This document shows, piece after piece, positions 22,416-23,450 of a stretch of 50,906 bases of DNA. A program made the position numbers and the translations under genes. Numbering within the stretch: the first letter of the stretch is position 1; every line of letters begins with the position of its first letter. This DNA comes from Acidobacteriota bacterium (lineage in GTDB: Bacteria; Acidobacteriota; Terriglobia; Versatilivoradales; Versatilivoraceae): positions 1 to 50,906 of the forward strand of contig JAPPDF010000086.1 of the NCBI GenBank assembly GCA_028875575.1, read 5' to 3'. Below the pieces are notes generated by a model that saw only the letters and a list, made by a program, of their open reading frames with translations, did not search any database and was not told the DNA's origin.

Positions 22416-22940
22416 CTACTGGACTTTCAGCTCCTTGAGCTTGGCAACCGCGTCCTCGGCGGCCGTGGACGCCCTGACCTGACGATCCACGTAAAGGATC
22501 TTCCCGTCCTTTCCGATGTAGAAGGTCCATCGTTCCGGCAGGTTCCGGTTTTCGTGGACGACGCCGTAAGCCCGGGCTGTCTCTTTGCCGGAATCGCTCA
22601 ATATGGGATAGTCCGCCTTGAGAGATTCGGCGAACCGGCGGTTTTCGTCAGCGGTGTCGCAGCTTGCAGTGAAGTAGGCAACGTTCAGGGATCGCAAGGC
22701 TTGGCCATTCTCACGGAATGACCGGCACTCGGCCGTTCACCCCCCTGTGAAGGCCTTGGGAAACCAGGCCAGCACCACCACCTGCTTGCCCTTGAACTGC
22801 TTCAGACTGTATGTCTTCCCGTCCGACCCCGGAAGCGAAAAATCGGGCGCTACATCTCCGGGCTTCAGGTCGGCCGCCAGGGACTGGCCCCAGGTGAGAG
22901 CCAACAACAATACCAGCACCATGGAGATCTTCATCGACAT
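22416..22940 (-). CDS. Selenocysteine-containing peroxiredoxin (in-frame UGA at the peroxidatic position)
   Basis: Reading 22940-22416 in one frame gives 174 residues with a single internal TGA at 22739-22737, residue 68. The first 22 residues form a signal peptide (MKISMVLVLLLALTWGQSLA). The next part is a peroxiredoxin AhpC/TSA fold: GDVAPDFSLPGSDGKTYSLKQFKGK, then VVVLAWFPKAFTGG-U-TAEC. The PxxxTxx-C motif is P61, T65 and position 68, so the TGA stands exactly where the peroxidatic cysteine should be; C72 is a candidate resolving residue. After it the same frame continues without further stop through ENGQALRSLNVAYFTAS, DYPILSDSGKETARAYGVV and RWTFYIGKDGKI to the normal end. A bSECIS hairpin lies just downstream. 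It should reduce peroxides outside the cytoplasm. A plain nonsense pseudogene is much less likely. Confidence 0.88.
22703..22723 (-). promoter_or_regulatory. Bacterial SECIS element of the peroxiredoxin mRNA
   Basis: On the coding strand, 13 nt after the UGA, GGTCATTC pairs with GAATGGCC (8 bp, one G-U) around the loop CGTGA. A G lies at the second loop position, and the loop begins about 22 nt from the UGA. Both fit the bacterial SECIS consensus (short stem, G in the first two loop bases, 16-37 nt from the codon), which SelB binds to insert selenocysteine. Confidence 0.8.
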
Positions 22941-23078: not shown

Positions 23079-23450
23079 CTAGGCTCCGGTGATCGGATTC
23101 CCCGAGGCCACCCACTCCTTGTAGCCTCCCGCCAGGGAAAACACGTTTCGGTAACCCATGCGCTGCAAGGCATCAGCGGACAACGCCGATCGGTACCCCC
23201 CGCCACAATAGAGAACGATCTCTTCGTCGGCGTCCGGCACCAGCGCTTCGATGTCCCTTTCGATAATCCCCTTCCCCAGATGGACGGCGCCCTCCGCACG
23301 GCCCCGGGTCCACTCGTGATCTTCGCGGATGTCGATAAAGTGGAAGGAATGCCCCTTTTGCAGCTTCTCCCGAACCGAGGCCACCGTAACCTCTCGAATC
23401 CGGGACTTGGAATCGTTGACGAGCTGCAAGAAACCGTTTGAGTGCTGCAT
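23079..23450 (-). CDS. Single-domain rhodanese-like sulfurtransferase
   Basis: 123 residues, one rhodanese domain: FHFIDIREDHEWTRGRAEGAVHLGKG, then the active-site loop LYCGGGYRSA with the catalytic cysteine, and GYRNVFSLAGGYKEWVASGNP at the end. It transfers sulfane sulfur from thiosulfate or persulfides to a thiol acceptor in the cytoplasm; no signal peptide. It lies between ttcA and the selenocysteine peroxiredoxin on the same strand, with gaps of 90 and 138 nt; sulfur donation for tRNA thiolation by TtcA is a possible role but is inference. The alternative open frame over the same stretch is a shadow. Confidence 0.88.
   Translation of the reverse strand: MQHSNGFLQLVNDSKSRIREVTVASVREKLQKGHSFHFIDIREDHEWTRGRAEGAVHLGKGIIERDIEALVPDADEEIVLYCGGGYRSALSADALQRMGYRNVFSLAGGYKEWVASGNPITGA

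Follow-up and report, generated by a model that had tools for sequence, protein, structure and literature searches.

An RNA hairpin at positions 22723..22703 on the minus strand of the window (the whole 50,906-nucleotide stretch of Acidobacteriota DNA analyzed here) is almost certainly a bSECIS element, lying in the coding sequence of a selenocysteine (Sec)-containing PrxQ/BCP-like peroxiredoxin and directing Sec insertion at residue 68. Judged from its sequence and that of its relatives, the hairpin very probably signals the ribosome to decode a stop codon as selenocysteine. Each computational criterion that we tried (the constraints of the bSECIS model, the catalytic position of the UGA, covariation, and the presence of Sec machinery) supports this reading.

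The gene spans 22416..22940 on the minus strand and, when read through its in-frame TGA (codon 68, 22739..22737), encodes 174 amino acids. Under translation table 11 the gene breaks at the TGA, leaving ORFs 22737-22940 and 22416-22697, and the Sec reading rescues it as a single peroxiredoxin gene. With TGA taken as Sec, the translation around codon 68 is ...WFPKAFTGGUTAECRSFRENGQALRSLNVAYFTASCDT.... The protein matches Pfam AhpC-TSA (112.7 bits) and Redoxin, and U68 aligns with a Cys in the stretch FxxAFTxxCTxE of the best solved relative (2ywn/4g2e). Codon 68 is the peroxidatic Cys position, within a TxxU motif, in agreement with an earlier note on this DNA that called the UGA catalytic and placed the stem inside coding sequence. 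The N-terminus has the appearance of a signal peptide, in which case the enzyme would be exported. A single-sequence AlphaFold2 model had a mean pLDDT of 48 and was set aside. Just upstream, in the same orientation, is a 123-aa ORF (23079-23450, minus strand), which we take from its motif to resemble rhodanese.

The hairpin begins after a 13-nt spacer (22736..22724) and consists of the 5′ arm GGTCATTC (22723..22716), the 5-nt loop CGTGA (22715..22711) and the 3′ arm GAATGGCC (22710..22703), all on the minus strand. All eight pairs of GGTCATTC-CGTGA-GAATGGCC are standard, including one U-G. The earlier note had located this 8-bp stem, its loop and its distance of 13 nt from the UGA correctly, with exact coordinates, but left the strand unstated; its G at loop position 2 is likewise present, while the distance from UGA to loop, put at about 22 nt, measures 21 nt.

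These features can be compared with the consensus bSECIS model, which calls for an apical loop of 3-9 nt on an upper stem of 4-16 bp (PMC13188914, section 5), a G at loop position 1 or 2, with G or U as its usual next base, a UGA-to-loop distance of 16-37 nt, and a minimum free energy at or below -7.5 kcal/mol (PMC13188914). The hairpin resembles the model in its 5-nt loop, in the G and U at loop positions 2-3 (CGUGA), in its stem (8 bp here, 7 bp in the homologue consensus), in its 21-nt distance, and in the fold energy of the isolated 21-nt hairpin (-9.1 kcal/mol). It has nothing beyond the model, and its sequence is particular to the present peroxiredoxin group. Four pieces that start at the UGA or further downstream are predicted to fold with the hairpin included, whereas a 53-nt piece starting 3 nt before the TGA favours an alternative fold (z = -0.36). 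Because this wider piece folds differently, free folding is not decisive for the hairpin. An Rfam search of the whole window at gathering level returned four tRNAs only.

Taken alone, such a hairpin is only mildly unusual. Among the 1474 TGAs of the window, counting both strands, 53 (3.6%) precede a bSECIS-like hairpin with 8 bp or more and 119 (8.1%) one with 7 bp or more. A hairpin of at least 8 bp also arises in 6.7% of 100,000 synonymous recodings of the 20 codons after the TGA. Since 3.6% of window TGAs and 6.7% of recodings match by chance, a lone hairpin is weak evidence; what makes this one significant is its conservation and covariation across homologues.

We assembled 110 homologous loci, comprising the locus of the window itself, 29 loci of further genomes in a phylum sample, and 80 from named records. 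These were chosen by similarity (30 loci fetched of 386 matching phylum-sample genomes, and the best 80 of 327 named records), and second tblastn matches were left out in five loci (L052, L053, L094, L101, L106). The peptide patterns used in the named-record search exclude the hairpin codons. Acidobacteria, Planctomycetota and Verrucomicrobia are among the groups that appear in the named-record titles. In this best-match selection, codon 68 is TGA in 80 loci, TGC in 25 and TGT in 5. Identical 48-nt rows were counted once, reducing the TGA set from 80 to 70 and the Cys set from 30 to 29. More distant peroxiredoxins (∼35-42% identity) of groups f49 and f23, e.g. G310:C23:47370-47852, have one TGA inside the match, and some of these may be further Sec peroxiredoxins.

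In the set of 70 distinct TGA sequences, 68 or 69 form each of pairs 3-8, 60 form pair 2, and only 12 form pair 1. Hence the inner 7 bp of the stem described earlier are general, and its outermost pair is not. All of the inner six pairs form in 65 of the 70 distinct TGA sequences, compared to 1 of the 29 distinct Cys sequences (p = 1.8e-18), and the loop has the form xGU in 69/70 and 2/29, respectively. RNAalifold, run on the 80 TGA rows, independently gives a 7-bp stem with a 5-nt loop. The hairpin is kept together with the Sec codon, with covariation. Two-sided changes occur in five of the eight pairs, amounting to 47 cells compared to a mean of 14.6 in shuffles that keep the relatedness among sequences; none of 500 shuffles reached 47, and slid registers gave 1 to 13. 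The 29 distinct Cys sequences show 51.3% pairing, the same as in shuffles, and their two-sided changes do not rise above shuffles. The earlier note had proposed looking for compensatory changes in homologues, with a lack of covariation and of a stem in TGA-containing orthologues counting against it; compensatory changes are present in the TGA homologues and absent from the Cys homologues, and the contrary outcome did not occur. Five of the 70 TGA sequences have one or more broken inner pairs (L023, L037, L090, L107, L123), and in a simple scan four of these showed a different bSECIS-like hairpin, 6 or 7 bp long, and L123 one of 5 bp.

One caveat here is the relatedness of the sequences, which is best answered by local evidence, namely the unpaired Cys homologues and stepwise changes at pair 5. 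Among relatives 89-94% identical, the window has A-U at this pair, four loci (L046-L049) have G-U and another (L050) has G-C, with synonymous Ser and Asn codons. On the best tree, an independent-pairs test counted at least 8 pair-6 state changes and at least 13 Sec/Cys changes, though well-supported branches were too scarce to permit a sign test.

Could the hairpin simply result from codon conservation within a protein helix, with Sec insertion relying on something else nearby? The codons do lie in a conserved stretch, and several pairs hardly vary (pair 4 is C-G in 68/70). However, neither pairing nor loop is kept in Cys homologues of the same family, and pair 5 shows, in close relatives, a compensatory change that is synonymous. 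Pair 6, which is held by the codons of residues 75 and 78, also argues against this idea. These residues are Leu-Ser in 43 and Phe-Asn in 24 of the 70 distinct TGA sequences, together 67/70, compared to 6/29 distinct Cys sequences with either combination (Fisher p = 5e-14, uncorrected for relatedness). We regard the by-product explanation as very unlikely.

A mid-gene in-frame stop in a draft assembly also brings to mind a pseudogene or a sequencing error, in which case the TGA would be a genuine stop and the hairpin, of a kind found by chance after 3.6% of TGAs, coincidental. Against this, TGA recurs at the same codon in 80/110 loci, on many contigs and in several phyla, and the nearest relatives maintain 89-94% protein identity over their full length, on both sides of the TGA. 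Moreover, among 201 window TGAs with 40 open codons on each side, the present one ranks first for coding-like codon usage, as scored by the weaker flank. Given the conservation of TGA at codon 68, we rejected a pseudogene or sequencing error, the probability of which is negligible. Just as improbable, in our estimation, is decoding of the UGA as another amino acid, by Trp insertion or near-cognate read-through. UGA read-through does occur in bacteria, yet the alternative residue at codon 68 is Cys in 30 of 30 cases and the genome carries the machinery for Sec.

The genome to which the window belongs (101 contigs totalling 4.49 Mb, with a listed completeness of 100%) encodes the full Sec-decoding trait, consisting of tRNA-Sec (contig C54, 69.4 bits, ARAGORN anticodon tca), SelA (526 bits), SelB (331 bits, with SelB-wing_2 and SelB-wing_3) and SelD (344 bits), the last with a TGA of its own inside. 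In selD (L130, G000:C52:502-1428), this TGA is at 532-534 of the locus, in the context CAG-U-ASK..., and a 10-bp hairpin whose loop is GUG is predicted 33 nt after it; selD is a probable second selenoprotein gene of the genome. Three matches to RF01852 exceeded the cut-off in this genome, two of which are tRNA-Ser according to ARAGORN, and for this reason only matches with E < 1e-10 were counted as tRNA-Sec.

Among 396 genomes of the phylum sample, 47 contain a close match with TGA, and 43 of these 47 have tRNA-Sec (E < 1e-10). In this tally, TGA status means a stop inside a match of at least about 129 bits, codon 68 itself having been read only in the 30 fetched loci. The other four genomes (G005, G185, G253, G116) have SelA over the cut-off and no tRNA-Sec above the tRNA-Ser background of RF01852, for which missing contigs are the simplest reading and a divergent tRNA-Sec is another. 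In one of them (G116), the TGA-containing peroxiredoxin fragment (C60:5-370) lies ∼10 kb from selA (C60:10331-11311) on the same contig. Of 14 genomes with stop-free close matches only, 7 have tRNA-Sec, and one of the other 7 has SelA (G090).

The mechanism suggested by these elements is textbook. The winged-helix end of SelB, with Sec-tRNA(Sec) and GTP, would bind the hairpin in the mRNA, and with SelB bound while the UGA enters the A site, Sec rather than termination would result at residue 68. What the sequences show is the hairpin, the covariation, the active-site position and the machinery genes, whereas SelB binding, Sec insertion, peroxidase activity and the role of Cys72 are inferred. 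Sec68 would attack peroxide and be recycled, probably via a selenenylsulfide with the invariant Cys72. The Cys72 codon (22725..22727, minus strand) encodes Cys in 70/70 distinct TGA and 29/29 distinct Cys sequences, which is consistent with a resolving role. The resulting arrangement is U-x3-C, compared to C-x4-C in E. coli BCP.

Based on domain and motif, namely an AhpC-TSA domain whose peroxidatic Cys position is occupied by U, we assign the protein to the Sec peroxiredoxins (COG1225, TxxU). It scores below the cut-offs of two NCBIfam models, PrxU (NF040737; 39.9 bits versus a curated cut-off of 270) and PRK09437 thiol peroxidase (76.2 bits versus 140). In the excerpts available of the papers cited here, the family is listed among selenoproteins (PMC9312934, as COG1225 Bcp; PMC13188914) with a PxxxTxxU motif (PMC13188914), accounts for 43 genes of the Sargasso Sea set (PMC1088965), and occurs in several organisms (PMC1794560); three selenoprotein families were counted for Acidobacteria (PMC1794560). 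As far as these excerpts describe it, the known COG1225/Bcp group shares with the present protein the AhpC-TSA family, the PxxxTxxU motif (here P-K-A-F-T-G-G-U) and the existence of Cys homologues. Prx-like thiol:disulfide oxidoreductase selenoproteins, as described in the same excerpts, belong to the same Pfam family (PF00578), but have UxxC, unlike the TxxU and U-x3-C seen here. Sec peroxiredoxin with TxxU has thus already been described, and the present gene is a well-supported further member. In the open literature searched, to the extent of the excerpts available, we found no report of this peroxiredoxin group in Acidobacteriota, Planctomycetota or Verrucomicrobiota.

We lean, by a small degree, towards a broader proposal in two parts taken jointly. 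One part is that the bSECIS constrains its own protein, such that residues 75 and 78 would be locked to Leu-Ser or Phe-Asn in Sec forms, because their codons must pair, and freed in Cys relatives, being set by the RNA signal and not by the enzyme. The other is that the group may represent a widespread U-x3-C Sec-peroxiredoxin lineage in Acidobacteriota, Planctomycetota and Verrucomicrobiota, unnamed by the family models searched. The analysis also provides a set of matched Sec and Cys homologues whose codons serve both a stretch of protein and an RNA decoding signal, which makes it possible to measure what the signal costs the protein.
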